DNA of 64,000 bases from Verrucomicrobiota bacterium (lineage in GTDB: Bacteria; Verrucomicrobiota; Verrucomicrobiia; Verrucomicrobiales; Verrucomicrobiaceae), in the NCBI GenBank assembly GCA_025360015.1, contig JANYCZ010000001.1:1-64000 (forward strand), in the 5' to 3' direction. Position numbers and translations under genes: made by a program. Of the stretch, positions 13,223 through 23,607 are shown one piece after another (within the stretch, counting starts at the first letter, position 1; each line of letters opens with the position of its first letter). Under the pieces are notes generated by a model. The model saw only the letters and a program-made list of their open reading frames with translations. It did not search any database and was not told the origin of the DNA.

Positions 13223-14149
13223 CTAGCGGTCGGAGGCCGCCCTCGGCCGTGACGCCGGGAAGCCCCGCATCAAAAAAATGCCAGTGGCAGCGATGACGGG
13301 CAAAAACAAAGCGCACTCCCGCGCGCAGACCCACACCGCTTCAGGCGATCCCCAGCGCGCCCAGGTCAGCCCGAGCGCCAGGGCATATTGCAGCACCGCG
13401 CCGCAGCCGAGCCATAGCGCGGCGGCACGCCCCTGTACGCCTCCCGGCTGCAGGGCGTGGTACTGCCGTAGCAACCAGCCCGCGAGGGCGATGACGACTG
13501 CCTGGGACAGCCAGGAGGTGCCGCCCATCAGCAGCCATGCGCGTCCACTGGCCGGGGCCCAGTCATAGAGGCCATGGGCCGCCGCCACGATGAGGCAGGT
13601 GGCGGCGCAGCGTGCCCAGGCCTGCCAGCCGCCACGCCAGGCCCTCAGCAGCGCCGCGCCGCACAGGCCGGTGGCGGTGGCGTGCAGCAGCGTGGTGGAA
13701 AAGACGCGGCCCACCAGCAGCGTGGGCTCGCTATGGCCGGTGAAAAACCAGCGGTTCTCCGCCGTGGCAAATCCCACACCGACGAGGGCCGCTGCGAGCA
13801 GCGCTGAGGACGGAGCTGAGCGTAAGGCCAGCCACAGCAGGAAGGGCAGCGAAAAGAGCAGTTTCAGGAGCTCCTCCCGCACGCCCACGTCGATGATGAA
13901 GCGCAGCAGGCTGCCTGCGCCTGCCAGTGATTCCAGATGCGGCGTGAGCAGCGGATGCACCGTGGCCAGGTACGTGCCCAGCACGCGGAAGCAGACCGCG
14001 CCCGCCAGCAGCGGCAATACGGGGCGCAGCCAGCGCAGGCCGTCCCGGCCGTCCAGGCAGGCGAACACGCCATACCAGATGCAGAGGCCGGTGAGTGCCG
14101 CGACATGGGGAGGGAGGGAAGGCGGCATAAGGGCGTCAGTCGATGGCAC
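13223..14149 (-). CDS. PrsW-family intramembrane metalloprotease
   Basis: This 308-aa polytopic membrane protein shows all four PrsW motifs in order: EELLK, GVGFATAEN, LLHATATGLCG and AHGLYD, supplying the Glu/His residues expected to bind zinc. PrsW proteases belong to the CAAX-protease (ABI) superfamily and cleave within or near membranes, for example an anti-sigma factor in Bacillus. About eight hydrophobic segments are visible. The start is a GTG at 14149 overlapping the end of the upstream kinase gene by 14 bases; an ATG at 14128 avoiding the overlap is equally plausible. It is on the same strand as, and just upstream of, the two PEP-CTERM miniproteins, which makes a role in handling such substrates conceivable but unproven. 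The C-terminus is Arg-rich. Confidence 0.85.
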   Translation of the reverse strand: MPSTDALMPPSLPPHVAALTGLCIWYGVFACLDGRDGLRWLRPVLPLLAGAVCFRVLGTYLATVHPLLTPHLESLAGAGSLLRFIIDVGVREELLKLLFSLPFLLWLALRSAPSSALLAAALVGVGFATAENRWFFTGHSEPTLLVGRVFSTTLLHATATGLCGAALLRAWRGGWQAWARCAATCLIVAAAHGLYDWAPASGRAWLLMGGTSWLSQAVVIALAGWLLRQYHALQPGGVQGRAAALWLGCGAVLQYALALGLTWARWGSPEAVWVCARECALFLPVIAATGIFLMRGFPASRPRAASDR

Positions 14150-16904
14150 CAGGGGCCACCCGTTCCTTCAAGTATTGGCTGAGCACAGCGAGGTCGATGG
14201 GTTTGACGAGGTATTCATCAAACCCGGCCTGGTGAGCCGTCGCGCGGTCTTCGGGGCTGCCGTAGCCGCTCATGGCGATGAGGAAGACGTCCTGCAGCCA
14301 TGGCATCGCCCGCAGTTGATGGGCGACTTCAAAGCCGTCCATGCCGGGCAGGCCGATGTCGAGCAGCACGACTTCGGGTTTGAATTCGAGTGCGGCGGTC
14401 AGCGCCTCCGGGCCGGTGAAGGCGGTGCAGGTTTCATGGCCGCGCCGGCGCTGCAGCATGGCGAGGCTTTGCGCGGAGTCGGTGTTGTCATCGACAATGA
14501 GGATGCGGCGCGGGGTTTCGCGCGGCGGCCTAGGGGGCATCGCGGGCCGGGGTGGCGGCTCGCGCAGGATGGGCAGGCGCACGATGAATTCGCTGCCCTT
14601 GCCGAGGCCTCCACTGTGGGCCTCGATGCTGCCGTCGTGCATTTTCACCAGGCGCTGGACGAGGGTGAGGCCGATGCCGAGACCGCCATGCGCGCGGTCC
14701 AGCGCACGCGTCGCCTGTACAAACAAATCGAAGATCTGTGGCAGCAGTTCAGAGGAGATGCCGATGCCGTTGTCGCTCACGGAGACGCTGACCTCCGGCG
14801 GCACCGCGCTCATGTTGCGCTCGGCACGCAGCACGATGTGGCTGCCATCACCGCTGTATTTGGAGGCGTTGCCGAGGAGATTGCCAAACACTTGCTCCAG
14901 CCGCGTGGCATCTGCGTTCAGATAGATCGGCTCCGGCGGCATGGACACGGTCAGCTCCTGATGATGGCTGGCGCAACTGGCGCGCACGACGCTGGTCGCG
15001 GCGGTGAGGATTTCCTCCAGAGCCACGGGCTTTTTGCGCAGCTCGATCTTGCCGTGGGTAATGCGGGAGACGTCCAGCAGATCGTCGATCATGCGGGTCA
15101 TGTTGTCGATCTGCCGGGCGATGATGTTCTGCGCGTGCTGGCGCTCCTCCGAGTTGGTCTCTTCGAGATTCATGATCTCCGCCGCATTGCGCAGCGGGGC
15201 GAGCGGATTGCGCAGCTCATGGGCGAGCATGGCGAGAAACTCGTCTTTGCTGCGGTCTGCGTCGCGCAGGGCGGCCGCCTGTGATGCGAGTGTTTGCGCC
15301 ATCTCGTGCCGCGCCGTGACATCGCGTGAGACAGCGAGCAGGCGGGAGGGCTTGTCGCTGCCATCCCGCATGGCGGAAATGGCCACGTCCCACCATTTGT
15401 CATGGCCGTGCAGGGTGCGGAAAAAGCCGACGAAGCCGCCGTCCCTGCCCGCCGCCGCAGCGGCCACGGCCGCGTGTGCTGCGGCACGGTCCTCCTCGCG
15501 CACCCATAAGTCGATCCACGCGGTGCCGAGATAGGGCTTGATGTCGGGGATGCCGAGCAAGTCCCGCCCTGCCTCCAGCGAGAGCAGATTCCCTTCGAGG
15601 TCCAGCACTTTGATGCAGTCCGGGCTGCTGTCGATGATGCTGCGCTTGAACTCCTCACTGGCGCGCAGGGATTCCGCCGCGCGCCGACGTTCGGAGACAT
15701 CGGTGAAGTAGCAGACGACGCCGTGGCCGCCCATCGGCAGGCTGATGCGCTGGACTTCCCATTCGTAGGACTGCGTGACGCCGAGGTCCACGCGCCGCTC
15801 ATAGAAATCGACCGCCTGGTACCGCTCTCCGGTGTCCAGCGTGTGCTGGAAGATTTTCATGACCTGCGCCGTCACCTCCGCGCCCCAGAGGATGTCCATG
15901 ATCTCGGCAAAGGATCTGCCGATCAAGGGGCCGAGAGGTCCGAAGACTTCGAGGGCCTTGCGATTGAGCTGCTGAAAGCGCAACCGGCCATCCAGCGCAA
16001 AGACGGCACCGGGCGACTGCTCGATCAGGGTGGCAAAAAGGGCCGCGCTGCGCTGCTCCGCAGCCTCAGCTTTGCGATGCTCCGTCACATCCGTGTGGAC
16101 GCCAACCCATTCGCGGATCGCTCCATCGGCACCGAGCAGAGGCATGGCACGGATGGTGCAGTGGCGATACTCGCCATCGTGGCGGCGCACGCGGTGCTCG
16201 AACTGAAACAGGCGCTTCTCCGCCACTGATTGGTTCCAGGCGTCAACGGTAGGCTGGGCGTCGTCCGGATGCACGGCCTGGCTCCAGCCGTAGCCTTGGT
16301 ACGCCTCCGGGGGCTGACCGGTAAAGTCGCCCCAGCCGGGCTGCTCGCCCTCCATCTGGCCCTCGGCATTGTTGGTCCAGACGAGGCTGCCGACGATGGC
16401 GGCGGCGATGCGGAAGCGCTCTTCGCTGGCGTGCAGCGCCGCCTCCTCGCCCCGGTGTTCGGTCACATCCAGACTCGTGCCGATGACAAAGGCTGGCTGC
16501 CCCAAAGCATTCAGGCGGACCGTGGCCACGGATTGGATGTGGCGGCAGGCACCGTCATTCATGCGGCGGATGCGGAACTCACGGCGGCTGCTCTCCTGCG
16601 AGCGGATGGTTTCCTGCAGGACCTCTTCTTGATAGGCCAGATCCTCCGGCCACACGGCCAGTCTCCAGGTGCTGTACGGCACGATGCCCTCCGGCATGGG
16701 AGCCACGCCATAGAGACGGAACATCTGCGCATCCCAGCGGATTTCATTCGTGAGGAGGTTCCACTCCCAGATGCCGACGCCGGTGGCCTCCGTGGCCAAG
16801 TGCATGCGCTGCTCGCTCTCGCGCAAAGCCTGTGCCGCCGTCACCCCTGCTTCCCCGATGATGCCATGGGGGAGAGAGGCTGATGACAGATCAGGGGAAC
16901 TCAT
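14136..16904 (-). CDS. Hybrid sensor histidine kinase, four PAS domains plus receiver
   Basis: This 922-aa protein has no membrane segments and should be a cytosolic multi-PAS sensor. PAS-like domains lie at about 33-150, 160-275, 285-405 and 418-535; the first two end in DVTEH and the others in TDVSERR and RDVTARH, the usual PAS/PAC endings. The dimerisation/phosphoacceptor domain (551-615) has His562 in LAHELRNPL. The ATPase domain (about 660-780) has NLLGNASKYS, DNGIGI and GGLGIGL boxes. A receiver (about 800-915) has VDDNTDS, phosphoacceptor Asp849 in LLDIGLPGMDG and Lys901 in LVKPID. The region from HisKA to the end is almost the same as in the CheB/CheR kinase at 19960. It is a single gene; the PrsW gene overlaps its 3' end. 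Confidence 0.93.
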   Translation of the reverse strand: MSSPDLSSASLPHGIIGEAGVTAAQALRESEQRMHLATEATGVGIWEWNLLTNEIRWDAQMFRLYGVAPMPEGIVPYSTWRLAVWPEDLAYQEEVLQETIRSQESSRREFRIRRMNDGACRHIQSVATVRLNALGQPAFVIGTSLDVTEHRGEEAALHASEERFRIAAAIVGSLVWTNNAEGQMEGEQPGWGDFTGQPPEAYQGYGWSQAVHPDDAQPTVDAWNQSVAEKRLFQFEHRVRRHDGEYRHCTIRAMPLLGADGAIREWVGVHTDVTEHRKAEAAEQRSAALFATLIEQSPGAVFALDGRLRFQQLNRKALEVFGPLGPLIGRSFAEIMDILWGAEVTAQVMKIFQHTLDTGERYQAVDFYERRVDLGVTQSYEWEVQRISLPMGGHGVVCYFTDVSERRRAAESLRASEEFKRSIIDSSPDCIKVLDLEGNLLSLEAGRDLLGIPDIKPYLGTAWIDLWVREEDRAAAHAAVAAAAAGRDGGFVGFFRTLHGHDKWWDVAISAMRDGSDKPSRLLAVSRDVTARHEMAQTLASQAAALRDADRSKDEFLAMLAHELRNPLAPLRNAAEIMNLEETNSEERQHAQNIIARQIDNMTRMIDDLLDVSRITHGKIELRKKPVALEEILTAATSVVRASCASHHQELTVSMPPEPIYLNADATRLEQVFGNLLGNASKYSGDGSHIVLRAERNMSAVPPEVSVSVSDNGIGISSELLPQIFDLFVQATRALDRAHGGLGIGLTLVQRLVKMHDGSIEAHSGGLGKGSEFIVRLPILREPPPRPAMPPRPPRETPRRILIVDDNTDSAQSLAMLQRRRGHETCTAFTGPEALTAALEFKPEVVLLDIGLPGMDGFEVAHQLRAMPWLQDVFLIAMSGYGSPEDRATAHQAGFDEYLVKPIDLAVLSQYLKERVAPGAID

Positions 16905-17097: not shown

Positions 17098-17397
17098 ATG
17101 AAAACATCCATCCTCCTCCTCATCCCTCTGCTTGGCCTCAGCCTGACAGCCTGCAAAGACAAAAGCTCCGCCAAAGTAAGCACAGACGTCAAGGAGTCCG
17201 CCAATGACTCCACCGGTACGCTCAAAATCAAAGGTGACTGGAATCAGATGAAGGGCAAGCTGAAGCAGAAATACGGTCAGCTCACCGATGACGATCTCAT
17301 GTATCAAAAGGGCAAGGAAGACGAACTTCATGGGCGTCTGCAAAAGCGCCTGGGAAAATCCCGCGAAGAGGTCGATCGCATTTTGAACGAGCTCTAA
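17098..17397 (+). CDS. CsbD-family lipoprotein
   Basis: This 99-aa protein has a lipoprotein signal ([19 protein letters not shown], lipobox LTAC) followed by a CsbD-like domain: [20 protein letters not shown] then [29 protein letters not shown]. CsbD proteins are small stress-induced proteins of unknown biochemical role; most are cytosolic, so the lipid anchor is a notable variation. I chose the ATG at 17098 because it opens the signal peptide; an in-frame ATG at 17047 adds a non-signal extension. A 42-aa membrane peptide gene follows 58 bp downstream on the same strand and is probably cotranscribed. Expression under envelope stress would fit the family but nothing in the DNA shows it. Confidence 0.88.
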
Positions 17398-17455
17398 GTC
17401 CGCGCGTCCTGGCAGGCGCGATATCAACAAGAAGAAACTTTAACCATCCACTATT

Positions 17456-17584
17456 ATGAAAAACACACTCATCAAATCATGGAAGCGCTGGGAAGAAGGC
17501 AAAATTGGCTATGCACTGCTCTGGCTGCTGGGGATCCCACTGCCTGTGCTCGTCATCTTCTACCTGATGCGCGGCGGCAATTAA
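17456..17584 (+). CDS. 42-aa single-pass membrane microprotein
   Basis: The frame opens with ATG and reads MKNTLIKSWKRWEEGKIGYA, then a hydrophobic helix LLWLLGIPLPVLVIFYLM and the end RGGN before TAA. The layout is a basic amphipathic N-terminus (inside-positive) and one transmembrane helix with an IPLP kink. A purine-rich GAAGAAAC about 15 bases upstream may serve in ribosome binding. It follows the CsbD lipoprotein gene with no terminator between, and similar tiny proteins with a W-L-L-G-I-P-L-P motif are, from memory, common in stress loci of Gram-negative bacteria. No function is assigned. It could act as a stress-responsive membrane peptide; a chance frame is unlikely given the clean composition. 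Confidence 0.6.
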   Translation: MKNTLIKSWKRWEEGKIGYALLWLLGIPLPVLVIFYLMRGGN

Positions 17585-17759
17585 CGCCGGTGTAGTGAAG
17601 GTAGAAACTCCACGCCAAGGGCGAACCTGGAAATGGGTTCGCCCTTGTCTGTTTTGGGGGTGGATATGCCCTGCCTCGCATGTGCCCCGGGATGCGAAGG
17701 GGGCATGGCTGGCATTCAGTTAAGATGGGGATCGTTCGTCCCATCATCTGCCGCGTCGC

Positions 17760-18310
17760 TGAGAGCAGAGCCCACTGGTAGGGCGGTTGGTCCTCCAACC
17801 GCCGCCGAGCGTCGCCTCACTCTCTTCACCCCATTCGATCCTCCTCCAACCGCCAGCGCTCGCAGACCGGTGGGCTTCGTCTTCGCTGCTGGACGCTCAA
17901 CATCTCACGGCCTCACGCGGCGGGCTGAGGACAGCCCGCCCTACCTTGCGCTGGGCTTCGTAGTCGCCGCTGCACGCTCAACAATCTCACGGCGTCACGC
18001 GGCGGGCTGAGGACAGCCCGCCCTACCTGGCGCTGGGCGCTCGCACACCCAGCGCGGGTAGGGCGGTTGGTCCTCCAACCGCCGCCGAGCGTCGCCTGAC
18101 TCTCTTCAACCCATTCGGTCTCCTCCAACCGCCAGCGCTCGCAGGCCGGTGGGCTTCGTGTTCACCGCTGGACGCTCAACATCTCACGGCCTCACGCGGC
18201 GGACTGAGGACAGTCCGCCCTACCTGCACTGGGCTTCGTGGTCGCCGCTGGACGCTCAACATCTCACGGCCTCACGCGACGGGCTGAGGACAGCACGCCC
18301 TACCTGCGGG
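17760..18310. repeat. REP array, left block (two hairpin families)
   Basis: Family A units (GGCGGTTGG-TCCT-CCAACCGCC) lie at 17782-17803 and 18062-18083. Family B units (GGCGGGCT-GAGGAC-AGCCCGCC) lie at 17919-17940, 18001-18022, 18198-18219 and 18278-18299. The unit at 18198 has stem GGCGGACT/AGTCCGCC, a paired compensatory change. Spacers are also repeated (GCTGGACGCTCAACATCTCA and similar). The block ends directly before the RAYT gene. Confidence 0.88.
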
Positions 18311-18315
18311 CCGTC

Positions 18316-18792
18316 TTACCCGCCGACCAAAAGATCGCCGTTCGACCATCGGAGTTGATGCGGCCAATCATCGGGACTGGCGCAAAGCTCTTTCCTCACG
18401 GGATTGTGCCGGATATAATGATGCTTGGCGTTTTCCTCATGGGTATTGCGCAAGCGATGATCAAAGAACCCGTCTTGCCAGACGATGCCAAGCTGCCGTG
18501 CGGTGTAGCGTTTCCAATGTTTGAACAAGTCCTCCATCGCTGCTTCTCGCGAAAAACTCAGGATCGCATGGAAGTGGTCGGGCATGAGCAACCAAAGGGT
18601 GATGTGCCACTTCCGTTGATCGTGATAGAACCGCGCCGCATCAAGCAATGCTGAGGCATTGTCTTTCCGAGTGAGTTGTTTGGGGCCCCGTTCAGCGCAG
18701 TTCACGGTGATGAAAAACAACGCACCCTCCTCGACCCAATGAGGCATGTCATGATGCAGATGTTTGCGATTCGTCAGCTCATTGTCCGGCAT
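18316..18792 (-). CDS. REP-associated tyrosine transposase (RAYT, Y1/HUH family)
   Basis: This 158-aa protein is a single-strand DNA transposase-like enzyme of the IS200/IS605-related RAYT group. The HUH motif is in LLMPDHFHAILSF (His-Phe-His), preceded by FFITVNC and HITLW, and followed by WQDGFFDHRLR and HHYIRHNPVRKEL. The catalytic Tyr is probably the one in this last segment. I place the start at the ATG at 18792 (MPDNELTNRK); the longer frame to 18894 runs into the repeat array and encodes low-complexity sequence. It is flanked on both sides by hairpin repeats, the classic arrangement in which a domesticated RAYT and its REP elements co-occur. No transposon ends or target duplication are obvious, so it is probably a resident gene. 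Confidence 0.9.
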   Translation of the reverse strand: MPDNELTNRKHLHHDMPHWVEEGALFFITVNCAERGPKQLTRKDNASALLDAARFYHDQRKWHITLWLLMPDHFHAILSFSREAAMEDLFKHWKRYTARQLGIVWQDGFFDHRLRNTHEENAKHHYIRHNPVRKELCASPDDWPHQLRWSNGDLLVGG

Positions 18793-18839
18793 GAAAAGAC
18801 GATGCGGCAGGTCGTTTGTTTCTGCAACCGCCGACGTGC

Positions 18840-19600
18840 GCAGGGTGGTGGGCTTCGTAGTCGCCGAGGGACGCTCAGCATCACGTAGCCTCACGCGGCG
18901 GGCTGAGGACAGCCCGCCCTACCTGGCGCTGGGCTTCGTAGTCGCTGCTGGACGCTCGACGTCTCATGGCCTCACGCGGCGGGCTGAAGACAAGTCCGCC
19001 CTACCTGGCGCTGGGCGCACGCACATCCAGCGCTGGTAGGGCGGTTGGTCCTCCAACCGCCGCCGAGCGTCGCCTGACTCTCTTCAACCCATTCGATCTT
19101 CCTCCAACCGCCAGCGCTCGCAGGCTGGTGGGCTTCGTCTTCGCTACTGGACGCTCAACATCTCACGGCCTCACGCGGCGGACTGAGGACAGCCCGCCCT
19201 ACCTTGCGCTGGGCGCTCGCACACCCAGCGGTGGTAGGGCGGTTGGTCCTCCAACCGCCGCCGAGCGTCGCCTGACTCTCTTCAACCCATTCGGTCTCCT
19301 CCAACCGCCAGCGCTCGCAGGCCGGTGGGCTTCGTCTTCGCTGCTGGACGCTCAACATCTCACGGCCTCACGCGGCGGACTGAGGACAGTCCGCCCCTAC
19401 CTGCGCTGGGCTTCGTCTTCGCTGCTGGACGCTCAACATCTCAGGGCGTCACGCGGCGGGCTGAGGACAGCCCGCCCTACCTGGCGCTGGGCGCTCGCAC
19501 ATCCAGCGCTGGTAGGGCGGTTGGTCCTCCAACCGCCGCCGCGCGTCGCCTGACTCTCTTCAACCCATTCGATCCTCCAACCGCCGCCGAGCGTCTCCAC
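18840..19600. repeat. REP array, right block (two hairpin families)
   Basis: Family A hairpins lie at 19040-19061, 19238-19259 and 19516-19537. Family B hairpins lie at 18897-18918, 18978-19000 (imperfect), 19177-19198 (one mismatch), 19374-19395 (GGCGGACT/AGTCCGCC variant) and 19455-19476. A half copy of the family A flank ends the array near 19576-19600. Units are joined by near-identical spacers such as GTGGGCTTCGTCTTCGCTGC, in alternating composite order as in bacterial BIMEs. Confidence 0.88.
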
Positions 19601-19959
19601 GGGTGCTTTTCGGAAATTCGTTGGGAAAAAGCTACTCCATGCCTGACCCTGCCGGTATCGCATGACAGGGTTAACCTGCATTTCTTTCTCATACTCGCAG
19701 GGAGCCTACGAACAGCGTGTTGCTGCCATGATGTAGCTCGGTATTCCGATGCCGATTCGGTGCCGTCGCGGAATTGGGATTCCGCGCTACATCCCCGCAT
19801 GGCAACGCTGGGAGTGTGAGAAGTGCGGGTTAAACCGGTGAGCGTGGATGTTTATGCAGCACTCGCTACAGCCGGTGGGATGCCAGTGTTTTCAGCTCGC
19901 TTTACTCGCACCGTTGTTCGCGTGGGATCCATGCCAAACGAGTCAGCCTTGACCAGTGC
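19601..19959. repeat. Gap with a second inverted repeat type (GATGTAGC element)
   Basis: No gene is supported. GATGTAGC at 19730-19737 and GCTACATC at 19786-19793 frame an imperfect long inverted repeat. The inner arms (TCGGTATTCCGA and TCGCGGAATTGGGATTCCGCG) also pair partly. It lies just right of the RAYT array but has a different sequence from its units. Confidence 0.5.
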
Positions 19960-22900
19960 TCAAGCCTTTGAACCGCGTTCCTTCAAGAACTGGCAGAGCA
20001 CGCTGAGGTCGATGGGTTTGACGAGGTATTCGTCAAATCCGGCTTTGTGCGCGGTGGTGCGGTCTTCGGGGCTGCCGTAGCCGCTCATGGCAATGAGGAA
20101 GATGTCTTTCAGCATGGGCAGCGCGCGCAACTGACGGGCGACTTCAAAGCCGTCCATGCCGGGCAGGCCGATGTCGAGCAGCACGACTTCGGGTTTGAAT
20201 TCGAGTGCGGCGCACAGCGCCTCCGGGCCGGTGAAGGCGGTGCGGGTCTCATGGCCGCGCCGCCGCTGCAGCATGGCGAGGCTGCAGGCGGAGTCGGTGT
20301 TGTCATCGACAATGAGGATGCGGCGCGGGGTTTCGCGGGTGGTTTTGGCGGGCAGCTCGGGCCGGGGTGGCGGCTCGCGCAGGATGGGCAGCCGCACGAT
20401 GAATTCGCTGCCCTTGCCGAGGCCGTCACTGTGCGCCTCAATACTGCCGTCGTGCATTTTTACCAGGCGCTGGACGAGGGTGAGGCCGATGCCGAGACCG
20501 CCATGCGCACGGTCCAGCGCGCGCGTGGCCTGCACAAACAAGTCGAAGATGTGCGGCAGCAGGTCAGGGGAGATGCCGATGCCGTCATCACGCACCGAGA
20601 CGACGACCTCCGGTGGCACCGCGTCCACGTTGCGTTCGGCACGCAGCACGATGTGGCTGCCGTCACCGCTGTACTTGCAGGCGTTGCTGAGGAGATTGCC
20701 AAAGACCTGCTCCAGCCGGGTGCAGTCGGCCTGCAGATAGACGGGCTCCGGCGGCATGGACACGGTGAGCTCCTGATGGTGGCTGGAACAACTGGAACGT
20801 ACGATGCTGGTCGCGGAGGTGAGGATGTCCTCCAGGGAGACGGGCTTTTTGCGCAGCTCGATCTTGCCGTGAGTGATGCGGGAGACGTCCAGCAGATCAT
20901 CGATCATGCGGGTCATGTTTTCGATCTGGCGGATGATGATGCACTGCGCCTGCGCACGCTCCTCCACGCTGGCATCCGTACCGTGCATGATCTCCGCCGC
21001 ATTGCGCAGCGGGGCAAGGGGGTTGCGCAGCTCATGGGCGAGCATGGCGAGAAATTCATCCTTGCTGCGGTCCGCCAGCGCCAGCTCCTCGGCGCGTGCC
21101 ACCAGGGCATTTTCCAGCAGGCGGCGGCCAGTGATGTCACGGGCGATCTTTGACGCACCGACGACGCGGCCCGAGCTGTCCCGAATGGGGGAGATGGTGA
21201 GCGATACATCAATGGGCCTGCCATCCTTGCGGAGGCGAACGGTTTCGAAATGATCGACGGGCTCCCCACGGCGGATATGGCCGAGGATGTCTGCTTCTTC
21301 CGTCTGACGTTCCGGCGGAATGAAAAGGGTGACGGGCTGGCCGATGACTTCGGCGGCGGTGTAGCCAAACAGGCGCTCCGCGCCGGGATTCCAGCTCATG
21401 AGGATGCCGTTGAGGTCCTTGCTCATGATGGCGTCATCTGAGGAGGCGACGATGGCGGCCATCCGGCTGAGCGCCTCCTCCGCCTGCACGCGCTCGGTGA
21501 TGTCCTCGACCGAGAGAACGATGAGCGGCTCATGGCGGGTGTTAGGGAGGCGGCAGGCGCGCAACTGCATGACGCGTGAGCCAATATCCTCAAAGGTGTG
21601 GCTCACTTCGAAGTGGTCGATGATGGACTCCTGCGGCAGCACGTTTTCGAGCAGCCGGCGCAGGTCGGGGATGTCCCACTGCTGATTGCCGACGTCATAG
21701 ATGAGGCGGCCCAGCGTGGTGGCGGGCGTGACGTGAAAACATTCGTAGAAGGCGCGGCTGGCCGTGCGGATGCGCGGCTCCTTGGTGAGGACCAGCAGCG
21801 GCACTCGCACGCTGGCGACGATGTCCTCGGCGTAGTCGCGGGCTTCCTGGATTTCCTGGTTGCGGTGGTTGAGCTCGTCATTGACGGTGGCCAGCTCCTC
21901 GTTGCTGGACTGGATCTCCTCCTTGGAGGTCTCCAGCTCTTCATTCACGCTTTGCAGCTCCTCATTGGCGGACTGCGTTTCTTCATTGGCAGACTGCAGC
22001 TCTTCATTCGCCGCCGCCTGCTGCTCGATGACAGACTCCAGATACTCGCGCGTCGCCGCCAGCTCCTGGGTCAGGCGCAGGATTTCTTCCTCGGCGCTGC
22101 CGGAGAGCGGCAGTGGAGGGGGCGGTGCGCTGGCGGCGGCATGCGCACCTTCATCAAAAAGCACGACAAAGCCGCCCTCACGATTCGGGGAATTTTTGAT
22201 GGGGATGACGTCCACGGCGACCTCGCGGAAGCCGACTTCGGTTTTCACGCGCAGGCCTTCTTCGCGGACGGCGCGGCCTTCGGTCCCGGCGCGGGCGATG
22301 GCGGAGCGCACGCCGATGAGCAGGCCCTCGCGCAGCATCTTGAGCAGGTGCAGGCTCGGGGTGCCGGCCGCCGGGGCCAGGTAGGCACCGGTCTCTCCGC
22401 GAAACTGGAGGATCTCCATGCCGGCGGAGATGACGACGCCGGGCGGTGAGTATTTGGCCAGCAGGAGGCGCTCGGCATCGCGGTAGAGCTCCGCGTGCGG
22501 TACCTCACGCGCTCTTGGCGCAGGCTGGAGGCTGCGGCCATAGGCTTCCACATGCTCCGTGTGCAGGGTGCTGCGCAGCGTGAGGGCTGCCGGGCGGCGC
22601 TTGAAAATCTTGTGCCGCACATCCTCGACCTCAAAAAGCTTGCGGTGGGTGCCCACGGTTTCGGAACTGCCGAGCCAGAGAAAACCGCCGGGCTTGAGCG
22701 CGTAATGCAGCACGGGAAGGAGCTGCTGCTGCAGCACCGGCTCAAAATAAATGAGCATGTTCCGGCAGGAGATGAAATCCACGCGTGAGAAAGGCGGGTC
22801 TGTCAGTGCATTGTGCCGCGAGAAGATGCAGCGCTCGCGGATGGACTTGCAGATGCGCCAGCCGCCCTCCTCCTGGGTGAAAAAACGCTGCAATCGTTCG

Positions 22901-23607
22901 GGGGATACCTCCTGTTCGATGCTGGCGGGGTAGAGGCCCTTGCGGGCCTTTTCGACACCCGTGTCGTTGAGATCTGTGGCGAACAACTGGAGCCGCACCG
23001 GGCTGCCTGCGGCCTCCGCGCATTCGGTGAAGAGGATGGCCAGCGAATAAGCCTCCTGCCCGGTGGAGCAGCCGAGCGTCCAGATGCGCAGCGGATCATG
23101 GCGCTGATGCGAGGCCAGGAGCTGTGGGATGACGGTGCCAGCCAGCACCTCGAAGGCTTCTGGATTGCGGAAAAAGCTGGTGACATTGATCAGCACATCC
23201 TGATAGAGAGCCTCGACCTCCCCCGGTGTGCTGCGCAGGTACGCTTCGTATTCCCGCAGCGTGTCGAGCTTGTGCAGCATCATGCGACGGGTGATGCGGC
23301 GGTGCAGGGTCTGCGCCTTGTAGTGGGTGAAGTCCACGCCCATGGCGCGCCGTACAATCTGCGCGATGCGGCCGTGCTCCAGCCCCTGCTCGGAGAGTTC
23401 CCCCGCGATCTGAGGCAGCCGGGCGATGCGGGCGATCTCATGGGCGATCTCCGCCGGGGGCAGGACGAAATCCACACAGCCGGTGGCGACTGCGCTGTGT
23501 GGCATGCTGACATGTTGCGCGCTGTCATCCTGGGCAAACACGATGCCGCCCACAGCTTTGATTTCCTCGATGCCCAGCGCGCCATCGCTCGCACTGCCGG
23601 AGAGCAC
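19960..23607 (-). CDS. CheB(C-terminal)-CheR-PAS-histidine kinase-receiver fusion (main part of a split gene)
   Basis: This 1215-aa frame starts inside a CheB methylesterase domain (VLSGSASDGALGIEEIKAVG with its catalytic-triad Asp). A CheR methyltransferase follows (about 70-340; SAM motif WTLGCSTGQEAYS, and NVTSFFRNPEAF). A long coiled coil (about 509-590; NEELQSANEETQSANEELQS) leads to two PAS domains (about 600-840), a HisKA domain with LAHELRNPL (about 850), an ATPase domain and a receiver (about 1095-1210, LLDIGLPGMDG). This is a known fusion type in which chemotaxis-like domains are coupled to a sensor kinase. The formal GTG start at 23607 overlaps the stop of the upstream CheB frame, but it lies within a conserved domain. 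The gene is therefore most likely one reading frame broken by a single-base indel near 23645, either a mutation or a sequencing error. Confidence 0.88.
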   Translation of the reverse strand: MLSGSASDGALGIEEIKAVGGIVFAQDDSAQHVSMPHSAVATGCVDFVLPPAEIAHEIARIARLPQIAGELSEQGLEHGRIAQIVRRAMGVDFTHYKAQTLHRRITRRMMLHKLDTLREYEAYLRSTPGEVEALYQDVLINVTSFFRNPEAFEVLAGTVIPQLLASHQRHDPLRIWTLGCSTGQEAYSLAILFTECAEAAGSPVRLQLFATDLNDTGVEKARKGLYPASIEQEVSPERLQRFFTQEEGGWRICKSIRERCIFSRHNALTDPPFSRVDFISCRNMLIYFEPVLQQQLLPVLHYALKPGGFLWLGSSETVGTHRKLFEVEDVRHKIFKRRPAALTLRSTLHTEHVEAYGRSLQPAPRAREVPHAELYRDAERLLLAKYSPPGVVISAGMEILQFRGETGAYLAPAAGTPSLHLLKMLREGLLIGVRSAIARAGTEGRAVREEGLRVKTEVGFREVAVDVIPIKNSPNREGGFVVLFDEGAHAAASAPPPPLPLSGSAEEEILRLTQELAATREYLESVIEQQAAANEELQSANEETQSANEELQSVNEELETSKEEIQSSNEELATVNDELNHRNQEIQEARDYAEDIVASVRVPLLVLTKEPRIRTASRAFYECFHVTPATTLGRLIYDVGNQQWDIPDLRRLLENVLPQESIIDHFEVSHTFEDIGSRVMQLRACRLPNTRHEPLIVLSVEDITERVQAEEALSRMAAIVASSDDAIMSKDLNGILMSWNPGAERLFGYTAAEVIGQPVTLFIPPERQTEEADILGHIRRGEPVDHFETVRLRKDGRPIDVSLTISPIRDSSGRVVGASKIARDITGRRLLENALVARAEELALADRSKDEFLAMLAHELRNPLAPLRNAAEIMHGTDASVEERAQAQCIIIRQIENMTRMIDDLLDVSRITHGKIELRKKPVSLEDILTSATSIVRSSCSSHHQELTVSMPPEPVYLQADCTRLEQVFGNLLSNACKYSGDGSHIVLRAERNVDAVPPEVVVSVRDDGIGISPDLLPHIFDLFVQATRALDRAHGGLGIGLTLVQRLVKMHDGSIEAHSDGLGKGSEFIVRLPILREPPPRPELPAKTTRETPRRILIVDDNTDSACSLAMLQRRRGHETRTAFTGPEALCAALEFKPEVVLLDIGLPGMDGFEVARQLRALPMLKDIFLIAMSGYGSPEDRTTAHKAGFDEYLVKPIDLSVLCQFLKERGSKA

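Follow-up and report, generated by a model that had tools for sequence, protein, structure and literature searches.

Organization of the locus

The window, by which we mean the whole 64,000-nt stretch of DNA that was analyzed, contains an intact minus-strand open reading frame for a REP-associated tyrosine transposase (RAYT, TnpA-REP), surrounded by 14 hairpins (five A and nine B units) at 17778-19539. The features are as follows:

17585..19996, no strand assigned: whole RAYT-REP block, bounded by flank alignments 17194-17584 and 19997-20669 to the genome G031
17778..17805, plus: REP unit A, GTAG-GGCGGTTGG-TCCT-CCAACCGCC
17917..17944, minus: REP unit B, GTAG-GGCGGGCTG-TCCT-CAGCCCGCC, GTAG end at 17944
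17999..18026, minus: REP unit B, GTAG end at 18026
18058..18085, plus: REP unit A
18196..18223, minus: REP unit B with both stem sides altered (GGCGGACTG/CAGTCCGCC), GTAG end at 18223
18276..18303, minus: REP unit B with one stem mismatch, GTAG 13 nt past the RAYT stop codon, gene-sense
18316..18792, minus: RAYT gene, about 158 aa, HUH motif PDHFH, catalytic-Tyr motif YIRHNPV
18895..18922, minus: REP unit B, GTAG 130 nt upstream of the RAYT ATG, gene-sense
18976..19004, minus: REP unit B, degenerate (1-nt insertion), GTAG end at 19004
19036..19063, plus: REP unit A
19175..19202, minus: REP unit B with one stem side altered, a wobble intermediate, GTAG end at 19202
19234..19261, plus: REP unit A
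19372..19400, minus: REP unit B with both stem sides altered, GTAG end at 19400
19453..19480, minus: REP unit B, GTAG end at 19480
19512..19539, plus: REP unit A
19573..19629, plus: right-end remnant of a dispersed REP element of about 200 bp (truncated A unit and GCTTTTCGGAAATTCGTTGGGAAAAAGCTA end), 82.8% identity over 58 nt

Every unit counted in an earlier sequence-only reading of this DNA is present, and the near-identical spacers that it described reappear as spacings recurring through the array: 31 nt between GTAGs that face each other, 110-111 nt between those pointing outward and 52-54 nt from one tandem B unit to the next. These indicate that the array is made of repeats of about 198 nt (A plus B) and about 80 nt (an extra B). 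When read from the GTAG end, nearly every unit has the form GTAG-GGCGG-NNNN-TCCT-NNNN-CCGCC, with the second NNNN complementing the first and an upper stem of TTGG in A (plus strand) and GCTG or ACTG in B (minus strand). Given that reverse complementation brings A and B to 79% identity and that they have the GTAG tag, the lower stem GGCGG/CCGCC and the loop TCCT in common, we consider them one dimorphic REP in two orientations, and not two hairpin families as first described. With GTAG, a palindrome of 9 bp and a loop of 4 nt, the units fall within the definition of GTAG REPs (6-13 bp, short loop), and the array, with its alternating orientation and conserved spacers, has the classic BIME layout known from E. 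coli. The RAYT gene has inverted REPs to either side: the nearest on each side are in gene sense, and their inverted partners lie farther out. The two B units said to carry changes on both sides of the stem (GGCGGACT/AGTCCGCC) are real (18196-18223 and 19372-19400), and the 19175-19202 unit, with only one side changed, has a G-T wobble on the GTAG-bearing strand.

Although hairpins and gene were correctly described, a second, unrelated GTAG REPIN (GTAGCTCGGTATTCC... / GTAGCGCGGAATCCC...) shortly downstream of the array, at 19733-19790, had been overlooked; it matches the hairpins around a RAYT-like paralog (L018) on contig C48. Two histidine-kinase/response-regulator genes on the minus strand (14136-16904 and 19960-23607) flank the array; over 1.1 kb their DNA is 88% identical, which places the array between paralogs.

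The RAYT protein

The ATG start at 18792 is backed by an aligned Met in the ortholog L177. The protein scores 95.7 bits against NCBIfam NF047646 (REP_Tyr_transpos; curated cut-off 80) and 23.3 bits against Pfam Y1_Tnp, marginally above the cut-off of 23. Its sole PDB match is TnpArep 4er8 (E=1.9e-9), to which both the HUH motif and the tyrosine align (PDHFH over PEHMH and YIRHNPV over YIYINPV). Among the 13 homologs aligned, D73, H74, H76, Y127, N131 and P132 are invariant (motifs MPDHFH and YIRHNPV), as are NPVR and the N-terminal Thr30, so that profile, HUH and Tyr residues all bear out the proposed Y1/HUH RAYT amid hairpin blocks. Published RAYT features include a Thr near the N-terminus that does not vary and the motif NP(L/V)(R/K)xG (PMC2817692); the window protein departs from this motif in having Glu in place of the final Gly (NPVRKE), which is kept in homologs L187-L190. 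The protein would be a DNA-cutting enzyme that binds REPs.

The motif set DHFH / WQ / YIRHNP is closest to subclass 2.5, or Bertels group 3, for which DH[LF]H, WQ and YI[VI]ANP are tabulated (PMC6006769), and a perfect stem that begins right after GTAG likewise agrees with group 3 REPs (PMC8266576). We therefore provisionally place the RAYT in group 3, with motifs and REP shape as the basis for choosing between groups 2 and 3.

Only one copy of this RAYT is present in its genome, the remainder of the 24 RAYT-family matches (some of them two pieces of one gene) being divergent paralogs, and no second close copy was found in any genome searched. An IS200/IS605 insertion sequence, for which near-identical multiple copies are expected, was rejected on the basis of this single copy and the divergence of the other matches. 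Four other RAYT-family genes of the genome (L015, L018, L027 and L028) have private GTAG hairpins (GTAGCCCTGTTCC, GTAGCGCGGAATT and GTAGCCGTGGGT), suggesting that several RAYT/REP pairs coexist in one genome.

REP copies and stem variation across the genome

Elsewhere in the 64 kb, GTAG-plus-hairpin matches are no more frequent than in shuffled sequence. Across the source genome (6.6 Mb in 79 contigs), the pattern GTAGGGCGG...CCGCC gave 71 matches versus 6 for the reversed pattern, with nested matches counted repeatedly, and the genome-wide covariance-model search that had been suggested showed strong over-representation, with about 100 matches at E<0.005. The array is therefore not a product of chance. 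REP copies form 52 clusters, 30 of them singletons, and the commonest dimer is a close pair with GTAG inside, mostly 30-35 nt apart.

Pairing is kept while the stem sequence varies, as had been proposed from the window: among 34 distinct sequences from the genome and its congeners, 94.8% of stem cells are paired, compared to 78.8% when shuffled and 31-52% with a slid partner, and double-changed stem cells number 51 against 19. The search patterns fixed the lower four pairs and left upper-stem positions free, so the invariance of the lower four is a consequence of the search and the covariation evidence comes from the upper five pairs.

Every clear facing pair is a heterodimer that joins a -CTTG, -TTGG or -CTGG partner to a -GCTG or -ACTG partner. 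In predicted folding with DNA parameters, the two hairpins stay apart in all of 10 natural dispersed heterodimers and in none of 20 artificial homodimers, which collapse instead into one long hairpin. Unequal stems may thus keep facing REPs as hairpins of their own, not one long cruciform; this is a plausible reason rather than proof, since the result is nearly forced by the sequences and the MFE model gives long-range pairing in two of the four window pairs. Di Nocera et al. left the heterodimer preference unexplained and suggested an escape from cruciform processing (PMC3733652).

A different arrangement was seen in genome G000 (contig C76:75890-76390), where eight REPs of this family, all in the same orientation, follow each other at 35-38-nt spacing (one at 58) without alternation and with no RAYT frame in the stretch examined around them. 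A second RAYT was also sought in the REP array on contig C8 of the window's genome, and none was found.

Homologous loci in related genomes

Among 34 genomes of the same genus, close orthologs (69-86%) were found only in G028, G032, G012 and G034, all flanked by GTAG-GGxxx..TCC hairpins with different stems. In total, six Verrucomicrobiaceae orthologs (62-86% identical) have GTAG hairpins of the same build and other stems near the gene; hairpins accompany the RAYT at every close ortholog locus examined. Named records place orthologs in Verrucomicrobiaceae, including MAGs labelled Prosthecobacter, with some MAG labels differing. Most of the more distant homologs (43-48%), in Opitutaceae and other verrucomicrobia, retain this hairpin build but have stems of their own, such as GGCGCGTTA-TCCC-TAACGCGCC. 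A strict GTRG hairpin lies at most 300 nt from the RAYT homolog in 17 of 20 loci; we counted 60 such hairpins in the 11.6 kb near the gene (5.16 per kb) versus one in the 59.6 kb far from it (0.017 per kb), and 0-1 in shuffled flanks.

REPs are also more numerous where an ortholog is present (median 39 versus 4; one-sided p=0.011, or p=0.035 when the model-source genome is left out, both ignoring the relatedness of the genomes). G002 and G023, which have 75 and 71 REPs with no detected ortholog, rule out a one-to-one correspondence within the genus between having the ortholog and the number of REPs; G031, likewise with no ortholog detected, has 32. Either another RAYT acts in these REP-rich congeners or REPs outlive their enzyme, and REPs without their RAYT are known in Pseudomonas (PMC3686654). 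No RAYT-like frame was found in the stretches fetched near REP-rich spots of G023, G002, G013 and G031. Outside the genus, the covariance model had no match in 21 genomes of the same order. One REP of G028 (contig C63; L102 3267-3286) contains a run of 20 N, making the REP number there a lower bound.

Interpretation of the locus

Taken together, the locus is very probably a REPtron, that is, a single-copy gene for a RAYT (a Y1 HUH nuclease) set among its cognate GTAG REPs, which form a BIME-like array and whose grammar is a perfect 9-bp stem directly after GTAG and a loop of TCCT or TCCC. The RAYT would bind the hairpin with its GTAG tag in single-stranded DNA, such as the lagging-strand template, cut nearby via the YIRHNP tyrosine and copy or move REP pairs; the array itself may have grown through local tandem duplication of the 198-nt (A plus B) and 80-nt (B) units. 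Group 3 enzymes of S. maltophilia and Marinomonas act on perfect palindromes and require specific loop bases (PMC8266576). By analogy with them, we predict that the conserved loop TCC and GTAG are the recognition points and that the variable upper four to five base pairs mainly need to pair.

Comparison with known systems

The sequence-only reading regarded such a system as less familiar in a verrucomicrobium, but Di Nocera et al. (2013, PMC3733652) had already documented GTAG REPs and REPtrons in Opitutus terrae and other PVC bacteria, together with heterodimers, stem changes that complement each other and genomes with several REP types, and dimorphic BIME-flanked RAYTs have been published since 2010 (PMC2817692). 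The window system shares with the former the phylum, the GTAG tag, complementary stem variants, HH/TT dimers and heterodimers, several REP types in one genome and REP-flanked RAYT genes; its GGCGG-NNNN stem and TCCT loop appear to differ. As in the group 3 REPtrons of Stenotrophomonas and Marinomonas (Corneloup et al. 2021, PMC8266576), a 3-4-nt loop with fixed bases accompanies a Y1 HUH enzyme, with the perfect palindrome directly after GTAG resembling Stenotrophomonas and the crowding of REPs around the tnpA-REP gene resembling Marinomonas. Loop and stem are different from theirs, however (a stem of 9 bp versus 8 or 5 bp), and the window system is known from its sequence. E. coli BIME-2 with yafM/TnpA-REP (Nunvar et al. 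2010, PMC2817692; PDB 4er8) likewise has a homologous protein and a RAYT gene flanked on either side by dimorphic REPs (Y/Z) that alternate in inverted orientation, but its group 2 REPs combine a bulged stem with longer loops, whereas the window stems are perfect. Pseudomonas fluorescens REPINs (Bertels and Rainey 2011, PMC3116915) are similar in their dispersed doublets and singletons and in a RAYT acting in trans; the commonest close pairs in the window's genome differ in having GTAG inside (30-35-nt spacer) and lying within an element of about 200 bp.

A search of the literature on Prosthecobacter REPs found no match. Overall, the system is largely ordinary, a well-preserved and well-supported example of a kind already published. 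Its value is that of a well-resolved REP/RAYT pair in a phylum that has received little study, and one that can be compared across many related genomes; it also offers a concrete test of why facing REPs are nearly always unequal and of whether RAYTs can relocate, given the standard view of them as vertical, single-copy and not self-copying.

Chromosomal position of the RAYT gene

RAYTs are described as single-copy genes that are inherited vertically and do not copy themselves (PMC8049555), with some Pseudomonas RAYTs at novel sites (PMC3686654). In each relative compared here, the gene lies at a different chromosomal place, which is less expected of RAYTs. Among seven orthologs, none of the 21 pairs have flanking genes in common, despite RAYT alignments at 68-85% DNA identity. 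At the matching junction of G031, the RAYT block is absent, with 73 nt in place of about 2.4 kb; the genes that flank the RAYT of G028 enclose another gene on contig C8 of the window's genome (DUF1016-type, a family recognized by eye), and the flanks of the G034 RAYT lie on other contigs there.

It is possible, and compatible with the REPtron interpretation, that RAYT and array together are a mobile, IS-like unit relocating within the genus and not a domesticated fixed gene, as the lack of common flanks, the empty G031 site, the DUF1016-type gene at the G028 site and the scattered G034 flanks would suggest. We hold this only tentatively, given that no genome has a second close copy, that the closest RAYT (G028) comes from a close host, as expected under vertical descent, and that the whole block has no defined ends or target duplications, while short or diverged flanks may escape detection. 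Gene loss could give the same picture, and relocation of the RAYT by itself, horizontal transfer and host rearrangement are all compatible with the flank differences, which do not separate the three. Rather unlikely in its entirety is the broader proposal that RAYT and heterodimer array travel jointly across the genus, with a species-specific site and a co-varying stem pair of their own in each case, seeding the 200-bp elements. If RAYTs were mobile in this way, they would be active selfish elements here, as opposed to domesticated, vertically inherited genes.

The dispersed 200-bp element

The dispersed REP pairs sit in an element of about 200 bp with common ends (GCAAAACTCATTTCC... and ...TTTTGGAAAACGCTATAG) that look imperfectly inverted and TIR-like. 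Copies enclosing the REP heterodimer occur across the genus (L137:1419-1627, L133, L110, L119, L129, L130 and others). The L129 copy, apparently located between two conserved blocks past an upstream stop codon, is absent from the same intergenic site in five congeners (G021, G028, G002, G004 and G008). In the alignment of L129:1380-1790 with G021 (contig C246), the site between the two genes is a terminator-like inverted repeat whose loop region is partly replaced by the copy, apparently through insertion into the loop, and no obvious target-site duplication is visible there. The L137 copy lies within a stretch of about 0.6 kb that is missing from G013 and G033.

The common ends outside the REPs could mean that these elements are MITEs mobilized by another transposase that recognizes their ends, with the RAYT uninvolved in their spread. 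We find this improbable, because the REP pair is the best conserved portion of the element, the empty-site alignment without a typical target-site duplication is a better fit to a Y1/HUH mechanism, and the right-end remnant also borders the RAYT array.

An improbable reading of the hairpins as passive RNA elements

It is very improbable that the hairpins act only passively in RNA, as terminators or mRNA-stabilizing stems, or are CRISPR-like repeats, with the RAYT beside them by chance: a same-sense REP does closely follow the RAYT stop codon in the window and its orthologs, and hairpin structure is conserved, but REPs occur in both orientations, the unpaired GTAG is constant (required by the search patterns, yet also mostly GTAG in a homolog scan that allowed GTGG or GCAG), the spacers are repeated and not unique, which rules out a CRISPR, and the association with RAYT homologs recurs at loci of several families.
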